A DNA stretch of 46,448 nt from IMG/VR virus record IMGVR_UViG_3300005511_000013, positions 1 to 46,448 of that record. One strand, 5' to 3'. Made by a program: the position numbers and the translations under genes. Every line of letters begins with the position of its first letter. Position 1 is the stretch's first letter. Below, piece after piece: positions 40 to 46,448 of the stretch. Under the pieces are notes generated by a model, which worked only from the letters and a program-made list of their open reading frames with translations, searched no databases and had not been told where the DNA came from. This DNA is from a virus.

Positions 40-115
40 GGGCCGTTAGCTCAGTCGGTAGAGCAGAAGACTTTTAATCTTTTGGTCGATGGTTCGAATC
101 CATCACGGCCCACCA
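40..115 (+). tRNA. tRNA-Lys (anticodon UUU), the prophage insertion target
   Basis: A 76-base cloverleaf with encoded CCA. The acceptor stem GGGCCGT pairs with ACGGCCC, the anticodon loop is CTTTTAA with anticodon TTT, and GGTTCGAATCC forms the T arm. The gene is intact: the phage entered between the anticodon arm and the 3' end and regenerated the missing half with its own copy. Its transcript now runs into phage DNA, where a phage-borne terminator follows 8 bases later. Confidence 0.97.
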
Positions 116-120
116 ATTGC
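67..120 (+). repeat. attL core, 54-bp direct repeat
   Basis: The 54 bases from the anticodon stem through five bases past the CCA are identical to 43018..43071. The base before (G against C) and after (G against A) differ, which fixes the limits. Integration by tyrosine recombinases at the 3' part of tRNA genes is well known. Confidence 0.95.
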
Positions 121-185: not shown

Positions 186-1238
186 TCACTTCGTCGGCGA
201 CACCTTTTCGCCCTTCCGCATCCGGGTGTAGCTCTCGGTCTGAACGACCGAAGAGTGGCCCAGCTGCTTCTGCGCCTGGCGGATATCGCCAGCCGAATCG
301 GCCTTGTCGGTGCCTGCTTTCGCGCGCAGATCCCGGAACTGAAACGCCGCCTTGGGCACGCCGGCAGCCGCTCGCGCCGCGTCGAACCTGCTGCGCAGCT
401 GCCCCTTGCTCAACGGCTGGCCATACTCATCCAGCAGCAGCGAGGTGTGCACGATCACCGCGCCTTTGTGGTTGCGCCGCTTCTTGAACGAGCGCTCACC
501 GAACCGCGCCAGCAGCACCGCCAGCTCGCCCTCGATTGCGATGCGCAGCTTCTTCCGGGTCTTGCTCTGGCTGATGTGCAGGAACCCGTCGCGGATGTCC
601 CGCCGGTCAAACGCGAGCGCGTCCGATGGCCGTTGTCCGGTCAGGTAGGCGAGGTCCAGGGCATCCCTCAACGGCTGGTCTGCGGCTTCCCACACCGTGC
701 GGTAGAGGTCGTCCTCCACGTACACGTCCCGCCCAGTCTCGCCATAGCCACGCACTCCCTTGCAGGGATTCTCGGCGTCGGTGAAGCCCCATTCGCGGCA
801 CATGTTCCACAGGTGGCTCAGCAGTGCCTTCTCCCGGTTCGCGCTGACGGTAGCCACCGTCCCGTGCTTCGTTCGCAGGTCCAGGTACTGCCGGACGTGC
901 AGCGGGCGAATTTTGGCCAGGGGCGCGGGCGGGTTACTGAAGAAAGCCTCCAGATTCGCCAGCTCCGTCAGGTTTACCTTCGCCGTCGAGGCGCGCTTTC
1001 GAGGGATCACCAGCTGCTTGTAACGGGTGGCCGCGTCCTTGAACGTGACGATCTCCGGCACTTCCTCCGAGCACGCCTGCAGCTCCGCCCACTTCCGGAT
1101 TGCTACGGGGTAGCTCTTCCCGAGGGCCGTCTCCCGCCGCGGTTTCTCGCCGTGGTCGAAGTAGTAATAGACCGTGCTGCCGCGCTTCCGCTTCCGCAGG
1201 TTCGGTATCGCGCTCGGATCCTTCGACCGCCTTCCCAT
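186..1238 (-). CDS. int: Tyrosine recombinase / phage integrase
   Basis: A 350-residue site-specific recombinase that would integrate and excise the phage at the tRNA-Lys core. Catalytic-domain landmarks are visible: Arg203 in TGQRPSD, Arg305 in FRDLR, His328 in LGHSS and the nucleophile Tyr337 in TESYTR. The usual His of the HxxR motif is replaced by Arg (RDLR). The basic N-terminus (RKRKRG) fits an arm-binding domain. The ATG at 1238 was chosen because it follows AAGGCGG and overlaps the upstream stop as TAATG; the open frame continues further upstream without a better signal. It lies beside attL at the distal end of the leftward early operon, as int does in lambda. Confidence 0.95.
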   Translation of the reverse strand: MGRRSKDPSAIPNLRKRKRGSTVYYYFDHGEKPRRETALGKSYPVAIRKWAELQACSEEVPEIVTFKDAATRYKQLVIPRKRASTAKVNLTELANLEAFFSNPPAPLAKIRPLHVRQYLDLRTKHGTVATVSANREKALLSHLWNMCREWGFTDAENPCKGVRGYGETGRDVYVEDDLYRTVWEAADQPLRDALDLAYLTGQRPSDALAFDRRDIRDGFLHISQSKTRKKLRIAIEGELAVLLARFGERSFKKRRNHKGAVIVHTSLLLDEYGQPLSKGQLRSRFDAARAAAGVPKAAFQFRDLRAKAGTDKADSAGDIRQAQKQLGHSSVVQTESYTRMRKGEKVSPTK

Positions 1239-4156: not shown

Positions 4157-4398
4157 GCCTGCTCCGTGGTGGTGCTGAGCCGCGCCTGCTGCAGGCTCGA
4201 CCAGGTGAGGGGATGGGGGCCGCGCTTGGCGCGACCGGCGGCTGCCGCGTGGGAGATGCCGACGCGCTTTGCGATCTGCGCGGTGCTGACCAGCTTCCCT
4301 TCGACGACATGGGCGTAGAGGGCCGCGCGCGCATGACCGGCGCGCATGTTGGATCCCGCCTTGAACACCATGTCACCGACCTTGACGTCCCGGCTCAT
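4153..4398 (-). CDS. Small HTH-like protein, 81 aa
   Basis: Residues about 36-62 (LVSTAQIAKRVGISHAAAAG, then RAKRG) fit a helix-turn-helix: two short helices joined by VGIS and followed by basic residues. This suggests DNA binding. It begins at the stop of rdgC (TGATG) and ends overlapping the next start (ATGA). No family name can be given with confidence. Confidence 0.65.
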   Translation of the reverse strand: MSRDVKVGDMVFKAGSNMRAGHARAALYAHVVEGKLVSTAQIAKRVGISHAAAAGRAKRGPHPLTWSSLQQARLSTTTEQA

Positions 4399-5303
4399 CA
4401 GGCCACCTCGCTGATCCGGAAGGCGGCAGCCAGGGTGTCGAACAGGCGGGTCAGCTCGCCGGCCTGCAGCGCGAACCGCGCGTCCAGCTCGGCGCGGCGG
4501 CCGTCCGTGTCGCTGTCGTCCAGCCGATCCAGTGCGCCGTCCAGGAACTTCAGCTTGCGCACCACCAGGTCGTCGCCCAGAACGAACGAGACGCTGTCCT
4601 CCAGCACCAGCGCCAGCTTCGTGACCTGCTTGCCGGCGTCCAGGTGCTTGGAGATTTCATCGCTGGCCAGCTCCTGGTGCTGCACCTTGGCGACCGCGCC
4701 GCCGTCGACCGGGTCCTTCAGCTCAGCTTCTTCGCCCAGGCTCAGGCCCGGCGGCAGCGCTTCGCCGGCGATCCAGCCAGTGAGCACGCTGCGCGGCGCG
4801 ACTTCGGCGTTCAGCGGCATGGCCGGGAAGCTGCCCAGCAGGCCACGGATGTCGGACATCACGTTCTCGCCAGTCCTGCGGCTGCTGGTGTCCACGAAGG
4901 CGATGCCGCGCTGGGTGTCCAGGAACACGTCGGTCCGCGAGGTCTTCACGAACGCCTTGGGCAGCAGCTCATGCAGCAGGTCGTCCTTCATGCGCTTACG
5001 CTCGCGCCCACCGGGGCGGCGGCCCTCGCGCTCTTCGATTTCGGCGATTTTCTTCGCCAGCTCGTTGTTGACCACGGCGCCGGGCAGGATCTTCTCTTCG
5101 CCGCCGACGGTCAGCCACAGGAAGGCGCCAGTGCTGTGCGACAGCACCTCCTGCTCCTCGATGCCGAAGGGTGAGACGAAGCCGCGAGAGGCAATTTCCA
5201 GCGGGCCAACGGGGCGCTGGCGTACGGCGGGCAGCAGCGTGTCCACGGCCAGGAAATCGACGGTGGTGGGGAAGCGGAACATCGTCAGGTTGCGAGCGAA
5301 CAT
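4398..5303 (-). CDS. rdgC: Recombination-associated protein RdgC
   Basis: 301 residues, essentially the length of chromosomal RdgC (303 in E. coli). The beginning MFARNLTMFRF, the early segment SRGFVSPFG, the block ELLPKAFVKTSRTDVFLD and the late KLKFLDG are hallmarks of the family. RdgC forms a ring around double-stranded DNA and restrains RecA activity. Here it is placed directly downstream of exonuclease and RecT genes, so it probably helps channel recombination to the phage pathway. An 86-base gap with two GC-rich hairpins separates it from the exonuclease gene. A phage-borne rdgC is known but uncommon. Confidence 0.93.
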   Translation of the reverse strand: MFARNLTMFRFPTTVDFLAVDTLLPAVRQRPVGPLEIASRGFVSPFGIEEQEVLSHSTGAFLWLTVGGEEKILPGAVVNNELAKKIAEIEEREGRRPGGRERKRMKDDLLHELLPKAFVKTSRTDVFLDTQRGIAFVDTSSRRTGENVMSDIRGLLGSFPAMPLNAEVAPRSVLTGWIAGEALPPGLSLGEEAELKDPVDGGAVAKVQHQELASDEISKHLDAGKQVTKLALVLEDSVSFVLGDDLVVRKLKFLDGALDRLDDSDTDGRRAELDARFALQAGELTRLFDTLAAAFRISEVA

Positions 5304-17324: not shown

Positions 17325-17798
17325 ATGGCAGCCCTGACACCGGACATGAAGGCCTTCATCGTGCAGCAGCTGGCCTGCTTCGACACGCCTTCACAGGTGG
17401 TTGAGGCGGTCAAGGCGCAGTACGGGGTCGAGATCAAACGGCAGCAGGCCGAAACACACGACCCCACGAAGTTCGCCGGCCGGGACTTGGCTGCCCGCTG
17501 GGTGACCCTGTTCCACGAAACCAGGGCGCGATTCAAGGAGGAGACGATGAGCATTCCCATCGCCAACCGTGCCTACCGGCTGCGCGCCCTGGACCGCATG
17601 GCCGCTCGGGCCGAGGGCATGAAGAACATGGCCTTGGCGGCGCAGCTGCTGGAGCAGGCGGCCAAGGAGACTGGCGGCGCGTACACGAATCGGCGCGAAA
17701 TCGAGCATTCCGGTGGCCTGGACGTGCGCAAGGCAGTGGAGATGAGCGAGGCGGAGCTGCTGGCAATCGCCGCCGGCAAGGCTGGCGGTGGTGGCTGA
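17325..17798 (+). CDS. terS: Terminase small subunit (DUF2280 family)
   Basis: 157 residues. The opening (AALTPDMKAFIVQQLACFDT, then PSQVVEAV and RQQAETHDPTKFAG) is the DUF2280 signature, a family of small terminase subunits that recognise phage DNA and stimulate the large subunit. A helical C-terminal part ends in a Gly run. The gene overlaps the start of terL. No ribosome-binding site is visible because the DnaA box abuts the ATG. Confidence 0.88.
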   Translation: MAALTPDMKAFIVQQLACFDTPSQVVEAVKAQYGVEIKRQQAETHDPTKFAGRDLAARWVTLFHETRARFKEETMSIPIANRAYRLRALDRMAARAEGMKNMALAAQLLEQAAKETGGAYTNRREIEHSGGLDVRKAVEMSEAELLAIAAGKAGGGG

Positions 17799-19413
17799 TG
17801 GCCGTCCGCGACTGACCCCGGCAGCGGCAGCGGCAGAGCTCATCCGCCGTCGCCGTTCGCGCGAGTCGCTCAAGGCGTTCGCCCTGTCCATCGCCATTCC
17901 AGGTGCGCCGGTCGATGACGACGACTTCAGCAACTGGGTCTGCGCCCCTGCCGAGAAGGTGCAGTTGGCCGCGCATCACGAGCTGCTGCTGGACAAGGTG
18001 GAGGAGTGCCTGCGCAAGTACATGGGCAGGCTCATGGTCTTCATGCCACCCGGCTCGGCCAAGTCCACCTATGCAGGCGTCGTTGCCCCGCCGTGGGCGA
18101 TGGGCATGTGGCCGGGCTGCAAGGTCATCTCGACCAGCTACGCGGCCAAGCCGGCATACCGCTCGTCGAAGCGATGCCGGGCCATCTGCAGCAGCCAGGA
18201 ATACGCATCGATCTGGGAGAAGCCCACGACCATTCGCGACGGCAGCGGCGCGGTGGACGAGTGGGAGCTGACAAACGACTCGGGCATGCTGGCCGCCGGC
18301 ATCCTGGGCGGCGTGACGTCTGCCCGTGCCGACGTGCTGATCATCGATGACCCGGTGGCCGGCCGCCAGGAAGCGGACAGCCCGACTGTGCGGCAAAGCA
18401 CGCGCGCAGCCTACGACGACGACCTGCTCACCCGCCTGAAGCCCGGGGCCTCGATCATCCTGATTCAGACCCGCTGGCACCCGGAGGACCTGGCCGGGTC
18501 CATCTTGCCGACAGAGTGGGACGGCGAGTCCGGCCCGATCCAGTGTCGCGACGGGCAGGTATGGGAGGTGCTGTGCATCCCCGCGCAGGCTGATCGCAAG
18601 GACGACCCGCTGGGCCGCGCCGTGGGCGAGTATCTGTGGCCAGAGTGGTTCTCGCCCCAGCACTGGGCGCAGTACAAGGCGATCGCCCGCACCTGGGCCA
18701 GCCTGTATCAGGGGCGGCCTAAGGCAGACACCGGCAATCAGTTCGACCTCGCCGACTTCGACGACCTCTGGTACGACCCAGACGAGCTGCCTGCGCGCCT
18801 GAAGACCTACGGTGCCAGCGACTTCGCGGTCACTGAGCGCGACTTGGAAAAGCAGACCGAGCCTGACTACACCGAGCACGGGGTGGCCGGCATGGACGAC
18901 GACAGCGTGCTGTGGATCATCGACTGGTGGGCGCAGCAGGTGGAGCTGGACAAGAGCGTCGGGGCGCAGCTGTCGTTGATCAAGCAGCACAAGCCGCTCT
19001 GGTGGTTCGGCGAGGTGGGCGGCCAAGAGAATTCCGTGAAGCCCGTCCGTCGCCTCCTGCAGAAGGAGGGGGACATGTTCGCCAACTATGTGTACCTGCC
19101 CCACATCGGGGACAAGGTGGCGAAAGCTCAGGCCTTCCGGGCGCTGGTAAAGGAGGGTCGAGTTCGCTTCCCGCGCGGCAATCCGCTCGTGAAGCGCCTC
19201 GTGGACATGCTCATCAGCTTCCCGCGCGGTCGGTTCGATGACGGCGTGGACGTGTGTGGCCTGCTCGGACGCGGCATCGCCGACATGGTGCCTGCCGAGA
19301 AGCCGGCCGTGGCCAAGCGCCCGCCGCCAAAGGTATTCACCGAGCCGTGGTATGCGGCAAGGGAGCGGCAAGACCGCGCCGAAGACGAGAAGAAGTCGCG
19401 CTACTACGACTGA
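17788..19413 (+). CDS. terL: Terminase large subunit
   Basis: 541 residues. ATPase motifs: Walker A FMPPGSAKST (85-94) and Walker B VLIIDDP (183-189). The nuclease half contains GASDFAVTE and further Asp residues typical of the RNase H-like domain. It translocates DNA into the prohead and cuts the concatemer. It begins at a GTG (17788, or 17791) upstream of the terS stop; the ATG formed at TGATG (17798) leads to a stop after five codons and can be excluded. Confidence 0.95.
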   Translation: MVADGRPRLTPAAAAAELIRRRRSRESLKAFALSIAIPGAPVDDDDFSNWVCAPAEKVQLAAHHELLLDKVEECLRKYMGRLMVFMPPGSAKSTYAGVVAPPWAMGMWPGCKVISTSYAAKPAYRSSKRCRAICSSQEYASIWEKPTTIRDGSGAVDEWELTNDSGMLAAGILGGVTSARADVLIIDDPVAGRQEADSPTVRQSTRAAYDDDLLTRLKPGASIILIQTRWHPEDLAGSILPTEWDGESGPIQCRDGQVWEVLCIPAQADRKDDPLGRAVGEYLWPEWFSPQHWAQYKAIARTWASLYQGRPKADTGNQFDLADFDDLWYDPDELPARLKTYGASDFAVTERDLEKQTEPDYTEHGVAGMDDDSVLWIIDWWAQQVELDKSVGAQLSLIKQHKPLWWFGEVGGQENSVKPVRRLLQKEGDMFANYVYLPHIGDKVAKAQAFRALVKEGRVRFPRGNPLVKRLVDMLISFPRGRFDDGVDVCGLLGRGIADMVPAEKPAVAKRPPPKVFTEPWYAARERQDRAEDEKKSRYYD

Positions 19414-19475: not shown

Positions 19476-21788
19476 ATGACTGACCAGCCGATTGCCGCCC
19501 TCGAAACCGGCATTGCGATGGCCGCCGACCCCGATCCCGATCGCGCCAGGAAGCTGAGCCGCGAGCAGGCCGACGTGAAGCGTTGGACGCAGCGGTTCGA
19601 AGAGGCCCGGGAATACGACAAGGACGCCCGCCGGCAGTACGTCAAGAACCGGCGCCAGGCGCGCGGCGACTCGGGCTTCATGGTCGACGCCAACCTGATC
19701 GGCACGTACATCGACATCCTGGAGTCGTTCCTCTACGCCCGGAACCCGGACTTCGACGTGTCGCCCGGCCCGGCGCACCGCATGCCCAGCCCTGAGCAGC
19801 TGCGGGACGTGATCGAGTCGAACGAAGAGCTGATGGCCCAGCTGCAGCAGCAGGCCGAGGCCGACGCCATGGAGGTTGGCCGGCAGGTGGCCACCGACTT
19901 GGTTGGCATGGGCGTGGACCAGCAGCAGGCCATCGCCCAGAGCATGCAGGCGCAGGAGTCCTTCCTCGCCCAAGGCGGCGTCGAGAAGCTGGTGAACGAC
20001 GAGGTGGTGAAGCTGCGCAAGCAGTACGCCCGCCGCTCGCGCGAAATGAAGCAGTTCGCCGAGACGCTGGAGGCCGTCGGCACCCAGATGTGGAAGGACG
20101 CCAACCTCAAGCGCCGCGGCCGGCCGTGGGTGCGTTCGTCGCTGACCATCGGCGTGGGCGTGCTGAAAGCCTCGTGGCAGGAGCGCACGGAGATCTCGCC
20201 GGAGACGCAGACGGCCATCAACGACCTGCAGCAGAACATTGCCCGGGCGCGCGCGCTCAAGACCGAGATCGAGGACGGCTCTGCCGGCGTGATCGCTGGG
20301 GCATGGGACACGGTGAAGGGAGTCTTCGGGCAGGACCAGGAGGCCAAGCTGGCAGACCTGCAGCGCCAGCTCGAAACCATCCAGAAGGGTGCGGAGCGGG
20401 TGGTTGCGCGCGGCTTTGTGGTCGACGTGGTGGACGGTGAGAACTTCCAGACCGCGCCGGGATTCACCATCGCCAATCACCTGGATGCGCCGTGGAACGC
20501 GGACATCTCCTTCCTGTCCTACGAGGACGCGCTGGCTCAGTTCGGTCCGTACCTGGCCACCTTCGACCCGAAGGGCAGGGCGGAGGAGATCCTGGGCAAG
20601 GCGACCCGTTACTCGCCGCGCAAGCCCTGCATGGGTAAGGACGAGAGCATTGCCGCCGGCGGCGACGTGGACGCCAGCGAGGCCGACGCCTACACCACCA
20701 GCCCGGACACCGGCTTGGCCAGCTTCGTGCGCGTCGTCGAAATCTGGGACGCGGTGAGCAACTCGGTCCTGACCACGATCACCGGCGTGCCGTTCTGGGT
20801 AAAGCCGAGCTTCAACCCGCCGGCCACAACCCGGTTCTACCCGTACTTCCTGAACTGCACGTCCGAGGTGGATGGACAGCGCCACCCGCAGAGCCTGGTC
20901 ACCCGCTCGACCAAGCTCATGGACGAGTACAACCGCATCGGCTCGGCCGAGGCCAAGCACCGCCAGCGCATCATCCCTAAGACCGGCTTCAACGCAGGGG
21001 CGATGACCGACGAGGAGGCCAAGAAGCTGGAGAAGGCTGTCGTCGGCGAGATGGTGCCGGTGAAGACCACGCGGCCTGATCTGGACCTGCGCACGATCCT
21101 TGTGCCGATCGCATACCCGCCGATGGACCCGCAGGTCTACAACCGCGCCGGCATCGTGGCTGAGCTGGAGCGCATCTGGGGCATCCAGGAGGCGCTGTCC
21201 GGCTCGGTCAACACGGCCAAGACCGCCACCGAGGCCGACATCCAGCAGCAGGGCTTTCAGGCGCGCAGCAGCAGCCGGCGCGACAGCCTCGAATCCAGCC
21301 TGAGCGACCTGGCGCAGTACACCTGCGAGATATCCCGCGTGTACCTGACCGACGAGGACGTGCGCTTCATCGCCGGCCCGGCCGCGTTCTGGCCACCGTA
21401 CATGGGGCCGGATGACCTGACCGAGTTCGTGCGCATCGAGATCCGCGCCGGCTCGTCGGGCAAGCCGAACACTGCGCTGGAGCGCCAGTCGTGGGCCAAC
21501 CTCCTGCCGCTGCTGCAGCAGGGCATCGGCCAGATCGGCCAGCTGCGCGGCGCTTCGCCCGAATCGATCGCCGACGCCATGGAGCAGCTGATGCGCCTGA
21601 CGGCCGAGCGCAGCGGCGAGCGCTTCGACATCGACCAGTTGATCCCGCAGAACGACGGCACGCAGCCGGCCATGCCCGTGCAGGGCAGCGCACCGCCTCC
21701 GCAGGGCGGCAATGCAGGCCAGCAGCCGCCCGTCGAAGCAGCACCTCCCGGCGGTGCACCGTCCGCCGATCCCCTCGCAGCAGCCTGA
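19476..21788 (+). CDS. Portal protein, 770 aa
   Basis: Size, position directly after terL and the helical Gln/Glu-rich architecture fit the large portal proteins of short-tailed phages (P22 portal is 725 aa). Long helices occur around 105-210 and 260-300, and a C-terminal Pro/Gln/Ala-rich tail probably projects into the capsid. Twelve copies would form the DNA gate. No peptidase fusion is seen. The 62 bases before it hold no gene. Confidence 0.88.
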   Translation: MTDQPIAALETGIAMAADPDPDRARKLSREQADVKRWTQRFEEAREYDKDARRQYVKNRRQARGDSGFMVDANLIGTYIDILESFLYARNPDFDVSPGPAHRMPSPEQLRDVIESNEELMAQLQQQAEADAMEVGRQVATDLVGMGVDQQQAIAQSMQAQESFLAQGGVEKLVNDEVVKLRKQYARRSREMKQFAETLEAVGTQMWKDANLKRRGRPWVRSSLTIGVGVLKASWQERTEISPETQTAINDLQQNIARARALKTEIEDGSAGVIAGAWDTVKGVFGQDQEAKLADLQRQLETIQKGAERVVARGFVVDVVDGENFQTAPGFTIANHLDAPWNADISFLSYEDALAQFGPYLATFDPKGRAEEILGKATRYSPRKPCMGKDESIAAGGDVDASEADAYTTSPDTGLASFVRVVEIWDAVSNSVLTTITGVPFWVKPSFNPPATTRFYPYFLNCTSEVDGQRHPQSLVTRSTKLMDEYNRIGSAEAKHRQRIIPKTGFNAGAMTDEEAKKLEKAVVGEMVPVKTTRPDLDLRTILVPIAYPPMDPQVYNRAGIVAELERIWGIQEALSGSVNTAKTATEADIQQQGFQARSSSRRDSLESSLSDLAQYTCEISRVYLTDEDVRFIAGPAAFWPPYMGPDDLTEFVRIEIRAGSSGKPNTALERQSWANLLPLLQQGIGQIGQLRGASPESIADAMEQLMRLTAERSGERFDIDQLIPQNDGTQPAMPVQGSAPPPQGGNAGQQPPVEAAPPGGAPSADPLAAA

Positions 21789-21800
21789 TAGGAGCACCAC

Positions 21801-22058
21801 GTGGACAATCAGCACCGCCAGATCAAGGGTTATCGCGAACTCTCGCAGACCGAAATCGACCTGATGAACGAGATCAAGACCAGGGGCGCTGAACTGGGCG
21901 AGCTCGTCCAGAAGCTAGAAAAGAACCAGACTCAGATCACCGCCGAACACGGCACCGGTGATGCCGAGCCGTTCCGCTGGATTGCCATCGGAAAGACGCA
22001 CCTGCAGCAGGGTCTGATGTGCCTGACCCGGGCTGTGGCCAAGCCCGAATTTTTCTGA
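21801..22058 (+). CDS. acb2: Acb2/Tad1-type anti-CBASS cyclic-nucleotide sponge
   Basis: 85 residues, the length of the family. The N-terminal helix KGYRELSQTEIDLMNEIK and the C-terminal helix with RWIAIGKTHLQQGLMCLTRA followed by a final Phe-Phe are the family pattern (Acb2/Tad1 hairpin domain). Tyr11 and Lys26, the positions reported to contact cyclic dinucleotides in the Pseudomonas phage protein, are both present. Acb2 binds CBASS and Thoeris signal molecules in the cytoplasm and so blocks abortive immunity. GTG start six bases after AGGAG. Its place between portal and scaffold implies late-class transcription. Confidence 0.85.
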   Translation: MDNQHRQIKGYRELSQTEIDLMNEIKTRGAELGELVQKLEKNQTQITAEHGTGDAEPFRWIAIGKTHLQQGLMCLTRAVAKPEFF

Positions 22059-22144
22059 TGAGCGCCCCGTACCTCTCCTGGATGGCCCAGCGCCACCGCC
22101 TCACGCTCGCCATCTGGCGGGTCTTCGACAGCTGGAGCAAGTGA
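22058..22144 (+). CDS. Very small ORF after acb2, 28 aa
   Basis: ATG overlaps the acb2 stop (TGATG) and the frame ends one base before the scaffold start codon. The peptide begins MSAPYLSWMAQRHRL and is basic and amphipathic, ending FDSWSK. It may be a coding peptide or simply a ribosome bridge that couples acb2 and scaffold translation. Confidence 0.5.
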   Translation: MSAPYLSWMAQRHRLTLAIWRVFDSWSK

Positions 22145-22145
22145 C

Positions 22146-23300
22146 ATGCCCGACCCGACCGAAACCCCGGCCACCGCGCCGGACACCACCCCGACCGACA
22201 CCACCGCTGACGCCCTGGCCGCGCTGGACGCTGGCATTGCTGCTGCTGATGGTGGCGAACCCACCCCGGAAGCTGTGCCTGCCGCACCGGTGGAACCCGC
22301 AGCACCGGCAGACCCTGCGCCGGCCGATCCCGCTCCGCAGGACCCGCCGGCCGGTGATACGCCGCCCGCTGATCCGGCCGCCGATCCCAACGCTCCGCCG
22401 GCAGACCCGACAGCTCCGCCTGCTGCCGAGCCGGACGCCGACACCGAGGCTGAAATCGCCTCGATGGGCCTCAAGGACAAGACCGCCGAGCGGTTCCGCA
22501 CCCTGGCTGGACAGGTCAAAGAGCTGGCTCCCATCCGCGACGCGCTGAAGGCGGCCGGCATCGAAGACGTCGCGAGCCTGCCGCAGCTGGTCGAGCGCTC
22601 GAAGGTGGGTGAGGACATGGTGCAGATGGTCGTCGCCACTGGCGCCAATCCGGAGCAGTACGGCGCAGCGCTGGACTACCTCGGCCTGATCGGCAAGGCC
22701 CAGCGCGGCGACATGGCTGCCGCTGGCCAAGCCTACGATGTGATGGCCAAGGAGTTGTCGGTCCTGGCCCAGATGCTCGGCAAGGAAGTGCCGGGCGTGC
22801 ACGACCCGCTTGCCGCCCATGCCGACCTGCTGGCCGAAGTGCAGGCCGGTGACTTGACGCGCGCCCGTGCCCTGGAAATCGCATCGACCCGTGCGCAGGG
22901 GCAGTTCAGCACCGCCGCGCAGCGGCAGCAGGATGAGCAGCAGCAGGCTGCCCAGCAGGCGGAGGAGGCCGGCATCAACTGGCTCAAGCAGTTCGACGCC
23001 GATGCCCGGGCGCAGGACCCCAGCTACCTGGCCAAGCGCCCGGCGCTGGATGAGGCGGTCGCCAACATCCGCCGCACCCTGCACCCGAGCAAGTGGCCGG
23101 AAGCGACCGCCCTGGCCTACGCCCGCATCCAGGCGCCTGCACCGGTGGCAGCCGCACCGGCAGCGCCCGCTGCTCCGGCCCAGCCGCGCCCCGGCCCGAT
23201 GCGCGCGGGTGGCCCGCGCCCGGTGATGGTTCCGGCCTTCGACGACCCGATGAAGGCGTTGGAGTTCGGCATCGACCAGGCCAACGACGCCGCAGCCTGA
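22146..23300 (+). CDS. Scaffolding protein
   Basis: 384 residues between portal and capsid genes. The first about 100 are a Pro/Ala/Asp-rich disordered arm, the middle is helical (coiled coil with a Gln run around 260-275), and a Pro/Ala linker precedes a short C-terminal helix (DDPMKALEFGIDQAND), which in scaffolds often contacts the coat. It would guide prohead assembly and then leave. The assignment rests on position and composition. Confidence 0.75.
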   Translation: MPDPTETPATAPDTTPTDTTADALAALDAGIAAADGGEPTPEAVPAAPVEPAAPADPAPADPAPQDPPAGDTPPADPAADPNAPPADPTAPPAAEPDADTEAEIASMGLKDKTAERFRTLAGQVKELAPIRDALKAAGIEDVASLPQLVERSKVGEDMVQMVVATGANPEQYGAALDYLGLIGKAQRGDMAAAGQAYDVMAKELSVLAQMLGKEVPGVHDPLAAHADLLAEVQAGDLTRARALEIASTRAQGQFSTAAQRQQDEQQQAAQQAEEAGINWLKQFDADARAQDPSYLAKRPALDEAVANIRRTLHPSKWPEATALAYARIQAPAPVAAAPAAPAAPAQPRPGPMRAGGPRPVMVPAFDDPMKALEFGIDQANDAAA

Positions 23301-23495: not shown

Positions 23496-24542
23496 ATGCC
23501 GTTTTCTACCGCGCAGCTCGCGCAGGGCGCCAATTACACCCTCGAGAGCTACTCCACCACCGACCCGGTGGACCAGATCTCTGTCGCACACCGCACCTTG
23601 GACCTGTTCATCAGCTCCAAGGAAGTCTCGTTCTTCGGCAACGGCATCTTCAACGAGAAGATCTTCGTGTCGAACGACAGCAACTACCAGAACTACAGCG
23701 GCGCCGACCAGGTCACGTACAACGAGCGTGACCCGAACCGCCTGGCCAAGTTCCAGTACTACAGCAACCACGAGGGCTTCTGGTTCGATGAAGACCGCCT
23801 GATCGCCAACGGCATCAACATCGACGATGCCGGCGTCGCGGTGGCCAGCTCGGGCGAGAAGGAGCAGCTGGTGAACCTGCTGCAGTCCAGCTGGCGCGCC
23901 ATGAAGAACGGCATCCAGGAAGGCCTTGCCCTCGAGCTGCTGCAGAACGGCTCGCAGAGCGCCAAGGCCGTCCCGGGCCTGGACCACATCGTGTCGACCA
24001 CCCCCGGCACCGGCGACATCGTCGGCGGCATCAACGCTGGCACCAGCACCTACTGGCGCAACAACGCCAGCATGGCCATCGCCTCGGGCGGTGTGGTCGC
24101 GGCGCTGGATGCGATGTACGACGCGTGCGTGCGCTACGGCGGCGCGATCCCGACCGACATCCGTTGCGGCCAGGCCTTCCTCAACGCCTACAAGGCCGAG
24201 GCGAAGACCGAGGTCAACCGCCAGATCATCATCGGCGCCAACGGCGGCACCGGTCTGGACGCTTCGGTCACTGCGGTGTTCTACCGCGGCATCGAGCTGG
24301 TGTGGGACCCGACCTTCGAAATGCTGGACGCGAAGCTGGGTGCGATCACCTACCCGTGGACCAAGCGCTGCTACCTGCTCAACCGCAACTTCATCAAGTT
24401 CCGCCCGGTGAAGGGCCACTGGATGAAGAAGCGCAAGCCGGAAAAGCTGCCGGACCGCTACGTCACCTACTACGCGCAGACCAACAAGTACGGCCTGACC
24501 GCGTCGAAGCGCAACGTCCACGCCGTCCTGTCCATCGCCTGA
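23496..24542 (+). CDS. Major capsid protein
   Basis: 348 residues after scaffold. Long beta and helix alternation, an N-terminal arm (PFSTAQLAQGANYTLESYS) and segments such as IDLFISS-like DLFISSKEVSF and GANGGTGLDASVTAVFYRG fit an HK97-fold coat protein of podoviruses. The in-frame sequence upstream of 23496 lacks coding character. No maturation protease is encoded nearby. Hairpins flank the gene on both sides, which would allow its mRNA to accumulate separately. Confidence 0.87.
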   Translation: MPFSTAQLAQGANYTLESYSTTDPVDQISVAHRTLDLFISSKEVSFFGNGIFNEKIFVSNDSNYQNYSGADQVTYNERDPNRLAKFQYYSNHEGFWFDEDRLIANGINIDDAGVAVASSGEKEQLVNLLQSSWRAMKNGIQEGLALELLQNGSQSAKAVPGLDHIVSTTPGTGDIVGGINAGTSTYWRNNASMAIASGGVVAALDAMYDACVRYGGAIPTDIRCGQAFLNAYKAEAKTEVNRQIIIGANGGTGLDASVTAVFYRGIELVWDPTFEMLDAKLGAITYPWTKRCYLLNRNFIKFRPVKGHWMKKRKPEKLPDRYVTYYAQTNKYGLTASKRNVHAVLSIA

Positions 24543-43017: not shown

Positions 43018-43071
43018 AAGACTTTTAATCTTTTGGTCGATGGTTCGAATCCATCACGGCCCACCAATTGC
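43018..43071 (+). repeat. attR core, 54-bp repeat with 3' tRNA-Lys remnant
   Basis: Identical to 67..120. It contains only the 3' part of the tRNA (anticodon arm to CCA) and no acceptor 5' strand, so no functional tRNA is made. The bases after 43071 are host DNA. Confidence 0.95.
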
Positions 43072-43169: not shown

Positions 43170-44096
43170 TCAGCGCCTGAAGCGCACGAAAGCGCGCTTG
43201 GCCAGGTACAGCAGGTTGCCCCCCAAACCGGCGTCCTGGGCCTTCCGCAGCGATGTGTTCTCGGCGTAGAGCGACATGATGTGCGCATCTCGTTGCCAGA
43301 TCAGATCGCGAATCTCGGCCACGTCCGCGCCGGCAAGCGTGTGCCCTTCGACGATCCGTTCGGGCAGCTGGCGCTTCACGTACAGGGTCGTGTGGCGGTC
43401 GACGATCTCGGCCTGCGGCCTCTCCTTGGTGTAGAAGTAGAGCGCAATGGAGCGGCGCGTCTTGCCTACATGTTCAGTGGGCAGCTGGATGGCGTTGAAG
43501 CCATGCCAGGAGCGCTCGGAGGTCTCAAAGAGGACGCCACGATTGAACGTGGGCGCGATGGACAGGTCCGGGCGTGCGGAGGCATGGGGATCCCGGAACA
43601 GTTCAAAGCACCCGCCCCAGTGCGGTTCCCATGTGGGATTGAGGTAGATGAGCAGGTTAAGACGCCGATGCCAGCGCTCGCTGGGGTGGTAGTTGAAATC
43701 CACATGCGGGTCCAGGCTCATCCCGCCGTGGTTCTCGTGGGTGCCGCCGCCCAGATACCACGGGTCGTACAGAAGGCCTTCGATGCCGGTGATGCGCGAT
43801 AGCAGCTTGAGGAACTGCGGGGTCTGGATCGCCGCATCCAGTGCGCGGAACGCCGGGCCCAAGCCGCGGATCTTTTCCATGGTGGATTTGCCACCAAGCT
43901 GGCCGTTGTCGCCCATCCGGTTCCCTTGTTCGAAGGAGGGGAACTCGACGTACAACCGATTCACGAAGTCGCGTTGAAAGAAGTCGTCGATCACCAGGTT
44001 TGGAAACGGCGGCGCGGATCTGAAGCGCGCGGCGATGCGACTTGCATCGGCAAGGATCTTTGGATTCAGGATGGAACCAAGGTCATGACTATCCAT
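43170..44096 (-). CDS. 2OG-Fe(II) oxygenase
   Basis: 308 residues. Iron ligands are visible: His131 and Asp133 in DPHVDFNYH and His198 in SERSWHGF, with Arg214/215 in TRRSIALYFY for 2-oxoglutarate. This is a prolyl-4-hydroxylase-type jelly-roll (about 30-225) with a C-terminal helical extension. Such enzymes occur in surface-glycan clusters, where they may hydroxylate a lipid or sugar; substrate unknown. Host gene, convergent with the displaced terminator. Confidence 0.85.
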   Translation of the reverse strand: MDSHDLGSILNPKILADASRIAARFRSAPPFPNLVIDDFFQRDFVNRLYVEFPSFEQGNRMGDNGQLGGKSTMEKIRGLGPAFRALDAAIQTPQFLKLLSRITGIEGLLYDPWYLGGGTHENHGGMSLDPHVDFNYHPSERWHRRLNLLIYLNPTWEPHWGGCFELFRDPHASARPDLSIAPTFNRGVLFETSERSWHGFNAIQLPTEHVGKTRRSIALYFYTKERPQAEIVDRHTTLYVKRQLPERIVEGHTLAGADVAEIRDLIWQRDAHIMSLYAENTSLRKAQDAGLGGNLLYLAKRAFVRFRR

Positions 44097-46176: not shown

Positions 46177-46390
46177 GTTTCGGGATGCTATGCGTACTGC
46201 GAGGGCGGCATCCTCTGGGGTCGGGGAGGGCAATGAAAGGCGAGATGCGACAGGGCGCGTTCTCGTTCCTGGGGTGCCTGGGTCGGTTGACCGGTGTCAT
46301 CAGGTGTGGGGCTGGTTGCGGCACGAAGCCAGCCACGCAGGGCGTGGCTCTACTACACTTGTTGCATCCCGGTAGCTCCCGGGCGCTGAC
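46177..46390. other. Divergent intergenic region between acyltransferase and epimerase genes
   Basis: 214 bases containing the SMAG repeat and, presumably, promoters for both genes. TTGCGG and TACACT-like segments are present near 46316 and 46354, too loosely spaced to call. Confidence 0.35.
46331..46353 (-). repeat. SMAG repeat (GTAG palindrome)
   Basis: On the minus strand GTAG is followed by one base and an 8-bp perfect stem (AGCCACGC with GCGTGGCT, loop AGG). This is the standard form of the abundant SMAG palindromes of Stenotrophomonas maltophilia, likely mobilised by REP-associated tyrosine transposases, and supports the host assignment. Confidence 0.75.
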
Positions 46391-46448
46391 ATGTGCTCTC
46401 CAGTGAAGATTCTCCTGACAGGAAGTTCAGGCCGGGTAGGTCGCGCCA
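46391..46448 (+). CDS. NAD-dependent epimerase/dehydratase-type protein, 5' end only
   Basis: Partial gene cut by the window edge. After an ATG (46391) or, more likely, GTG (46403), the frame reads VKILLTGSSGRVGRA, the TGxxGxxG Rossmann motif of extended short-chain dehydrogenases that modify nucleotide sugars. Divergent from the broken acyltransferase, in a polysaccharide context. Confidence 0.65.
   Translation, partial: MCSPVKILLTGSSGRVGRA

Follow-up and report, generated by a model that had tools for sequence, protein, structure and literature searches.

A probable Acb2-type anti-CBASS sponge encoded in the head operon of a temperate phage of a Stenotrophomonas-like host

The DNA analysed here (the window, 46,448 nucleotides, virus record IMGVR_UViG_3300005511_000013) is an integrated prophage together with host DNA. 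The small gene at 21801..22058 (+ strand), designated acb2, very probably (a probability of roughly 0.93) encodes an Acb2-type anti-CBASS sponge of a temperate phage that has inserted at tRNA-Lys in a Stenotrophomonas-like host. By sequence and structural model, the product is a confirmed Acb2 homologue and an ordinary member of a large, known family. The open reading frame (ORF) is present at exactly the coordinates given in the first-pass annotation. It has 85 codons, a GTG start and a TGA stop, its codon usage scores as coding, and its ribosome-binding site, AGGAG, lies at 21790..21794 (+). The start is backed by homologues from many phages that begin at the same first residue, M[DE]NQH.

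Membership of the Acb2/Tad1 hairpin family, as proposed initially, was confirmed by a match to the whole of the Pfam profile PF24729 (Acb2_Tad1_hairpin; positions 1-58 of 58, E 6e-18) at 65.2 bits, far above the cut-off of 27 bits. A phmmer search of the PDB returned a full-length match to PaP2 p26/Acb2 (8h2j, 8ixz; E 1e-20), and a profile constructed from 53 homologues matched Acb2 (E 1e-33) and T4 Vs.4 (E 4e-5) but no other convincing chain; these two are the only solved relatives of the acb2 product. PADLOC and NCBIfam contain no model that matches it. Relatives were detected by tblastn in at least 233 phage records, 19 bacterial contigs and 153 viral stretches, with 80 of the latter kept for analysis. 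An AlphaFold2 model of the monomer, based on a 53-row alignment, has the anticipated helical hairpin, with helices at residues 16-50 and 55-80 (mean pLDDT 87.5) and an N-terminal region of 10 residues predicted with low confidence (mean pLDDT 55). When this model was submitted to Foldseek, six Acb2 chains ranked first (E 8e-6 to 2e-5, with 8h2j at 8e-6; TM 0.73-0.79), followed by T4 Vs.4 and then nothing significant.

Eight positions, M1, Y11, L14, K26, Q69, G71, M73 and P82, are invariant in an alignment of 58 diverse homologues. They include the two residues whose retention had been pointed out from the sequence, Tyr11 (codon 21831..21833, +) and Lys26 (codon 21876..21878, +), the latter a residue that we take to contact the ligand in Acb2. 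Tyr11 is the equivalent of Tyr8 in T4 Acb2, a residue that, when changed to alanine, results in a binding-deficient protein (PMC12657230). The T68M substitution in T4 Acb2 also lowers binding (PMC12657230); in the alignment, T4 Y8 and T68 correspond to Y11 and T66 of the acb2 product, and both are kept.

The Acb2 proteins of the Pseudomonas phages PaP2 and PaMx33 (p26; PDB 8h2j, 8h2x, 8ixz) match the acb2 product over its full length with ~45% identity, and share the hairpin, Tyr11 and Lys26. They are, however, 93-94 residues long, and the product here, with 85, has a shorter loop between the helices; because PaP2 Acb2 (93 residues) has the longer central loop, the range of ligands could differ. 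T4 Vs.4 (T4 Acb2, PDB 7uq2) has the same fold (TM 0.70-0.75), with Tyr8, Lys23 and Thr68 in the positions of Tyr11, Lys26 and Thr66, but is only 28% identical and comes from a virulent, T4-type phage. Tad1 (Thoeris anti-defence 1) has the Pfam helical hairpin in common with Acb2 and, according to the literature, also a hexamer with a trinucleotide site. Tad1 differs in having its own N-terminal beta-sheet domain and in binding gcADPR.

The first-pass annotation named the protein Acb2/Tad1-type and had it sequester Thoeris as well as CBASS signals. Family and fold uphold the Acb2 half of that name. The Tad1 half, namely a Tad1-like sponge that also binds gcADPR, could be argued from the span of PF24729, which covers both Acb2 and Tad1, and from the reported presence of Thoeris in S. 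maltophilia (PMC11680222). We consider it very improbable. The model contains no strands and only 15 residues precede helix 1, leaving no N-terminal beta domain, and neither sequence, profile nor fold comparison with the PDB returned a Tad1 chain. The binders of gcADPR are Tad1 and Tad2, whereas Acb2 binds cyclic di- and trinucleotides (review PMC12043709). With a hairpin only, and with Acb2 and T4 Vs.4 as its solved relatives, the acb2 product lacks the domain and the structural match that would support sequestration of the Thoeris signal, and that claim is therefore unsupported.

Acb2 proteins bind cyclic di- and trinucleotides in separate pockets (review PMC12043709). By homology, the acb2 product would assemble as a small hexamer, with cyclic dinucleotides held in pockets between protomers, on the side of Tyr11 and Lys26, and cyclic trinucleotides probably bound at the trimer ends. 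It would thus be a trap for these molecules and not an enzyme. During the lytic phase, removal of the CBASS signal by the sponge would leave the effector (a nuclease, phospholipase or similar) not switched on, and the phage would so be protected. Acb2 acts at lysogenic induction and not in the quiet lysogen (review PMC12043709), which fits the location of the gene in a lytic head operon.

In that operon, all on the + strand, the genes are ordered terminase large subunit (17788..19413; phrog_38, E 4e-78), portal (19476..21788; 28.5% to the annotated portal of Microcystis phage Mae-Yong1326-1), acb2, a 28-codon ORF, putative scaffold (22146..23300) and major capsid protein (23496..24542; phrog_9953, E 8e-26; 23496 is the likelier start by codon score). 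The scaffold assignment is putative because it follows from position only, as a conserved neighbour in relatives; family profile searches with the 22146-23300 product gave no family match. We infer that acb2 is expressed late, with the head genes. The suggestion that sponge levels would rise just as capsid sensing begins is speculation.

The position of acb2 between the portal and scaffold genes, as first described, is correct, but the special meaning attached to it is not sustained by comparison with relatives and other phages. Gene order is the same in the nearest relatives, L021 (identical) and the prophage of S. maltophilia D5.1 (L002). In L022, L030 and L044, whose head module is the same, acb2 is instead flanked by scaffold and capsid; in L023 it again follows the scaffold gene, and there the contig ends. 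The related head module of Mae-Yong1326-1 has no acb2. Elsewhere, acb2 lies shortly 3′ of the capsid gene in Beetrevirus, between terminase and portal in Marinobacter phage PS6 and, in PaP2, next to replication genes, with the capsid genes on the other strand; in other phages it adjoins replication, lysis or packaging genes. Tallies of neighbouring gene families at ~65 loci, which replaced a crude ORF-based count over 100 loci that was too noisy in GC-rich DNA, did not show any one partner to predominate; ParB-like, endolysin, spanin, terminase, portal and capsid families all occur. On the strength of this synteny comparison we rejected the idea that the portal-scaffold interval is a fixed and meaningful location for acb2.

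The same comparison bears on whether a protein with the Acb2 fold might serve in head structure or assembly rather than as a sponge. In its own phage group and in several others acb2 does lie among head genes, but its place shifts among close relatives, it is missing from the Mae-Yong1326-1 head module, many homologues are encoded far from head genes and the ligand residues are invariant, all of which make a role in the head highly unlikely. That its position shifts within one head operon shows acb2 to be an accessory of the operon and not part of the virion.

The acb2 stop codon overlaps (ATGA) the start of a micro-ORF of 28 codons (22058..22144, +) that was missing from the first-pass picture. 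Its predicted product, MSAPYLSWMAQRHRLTLAIWRVFDSWSK, has no significant match among phages; at the same overlap with acb2, the S. maltophilia D5.1 prophage has a shorter, 19-codon counterpart, MRRHPLTLAIWRAIASMPR. It is conceivable, if quite unlikely, that acb2 and an overlapping micro-ORF of 19-28 codons constitute a small movable counter-defence cassette within the head operon that ties sponge dose to capsid production, with the micro-protein modulating the sponge or the defence. Within its 3′-end (22029-22047), acb2 contains a terminator-like hairpin. We rejected it as an expression signal, as 5 such sites were found where 4.8 would be expected by chance, and L002, L022 and L023 have not retained this one. 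A promoter scan, which covers one promoter type only, found none near acb2.

The Acb2 protein is more conserved than its surroundings. It is 88% identical to that of L022 and 81% to that of the S. maltophilia D5.1 prophage, whereas the neighbouring proteins compared are 37-57% identical; in the D5.1 prophage, where the order portal, acb2, micro-ORF, scaffold is shared, the adjoining head proteins are only 43-46% identical. High protein identity hinted at a recent transfer of acb2 between phages, but this was rejected as divergence at its fourfold-degenerate sites (~56-58% agreement with L022 and L002) is on a par with that in the neighbouring genes. With the protein more conserved and these sites equally diverged, strong purifying selection, rather than a recent swap, is the simplest reading of the sequences. 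A decayed or non-functional acb2, for which the GTG start and nothing beyond could be cited, has a next to negligible probability given this selection, the intact frame, the ribosome-binding site and the coding codon usage.

The limits of the prophage are marked by a 54-bp direct repeat that covers the 3′-part of tRNA-Lys(ttt) (40-115) plus a few bases beyond. The left copy is at 67..120 (+) and the right copy at 43018..43071 (+), after which ~3.4 kb of host DNA follows. A tyrosine integrase is encoded beside the repeat, at 186..1238 (- strand; PF00589, E 1e-18). In the Stenotrophomonas genome G033 the site is empty, and the right-hand host flank comes immediately after tRNA-Lys. A Stenotrophomonas-type host, as originally proposed, is therefore supported to the genus or near it (the genus here being that of G001, which includes S. 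maltophilia D5.1). The prophage also has a full-length RdgC-like gene (4398-5303, -; PF04381, E 5e-91) that adjoins genes for a YqaJ-type exonuclease and RecT. In the host flank, a 2OG-Fe(II) oxygenase gene (43170-43994, -) lies just outside the attachment site. The last 143 bases (46306-46448) have a 98% match to one Stenotrophomonas genome and in part match many others, and are far more conserved than the remainder of the flank.

The inference drawn earlier of CBASS or Thoeris pressure in this genus agrees, as regards the presence of CBASS, with the genomes surveyed, as 10 of 91 contain a CD-NTase domain (SMODS). Among these Stenotrophomonas loci, L121 has a CD-NTase with TRIP13, a type III-like CBASS locus; L122 has E1-E2 and a SAVED nuclease beside the CD-NTase hit, a type II-like locus; and in L120 the CD-NTase stands alone among the proteins scanned. 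Both CBASS and Thoeris are also recorded for S. maltophilia in a published survey (PMC11680222). No SMODS-type CD-NTase was found in G033, the genome with the closest flank, and the 3 genomes of the 91 that carry PF24729 are likewise without a SMODS hit. As CBASS loci exist in the host genus, a CBASS target is plausible, as is CBASS pressure in Stenotrophomonas at the genus level.

In the literature searched, we found no report of anti-CBASS activity for this group of Stenotrophomonas temperate phages. The acb2 gene adds a well-supported Acb2 to these phages; CBASS loci are known in the genus Stenotrophomonas, which includes multidrug-resistant members. Otherwise the gene confirms a known point, that Acb2 is widespread.
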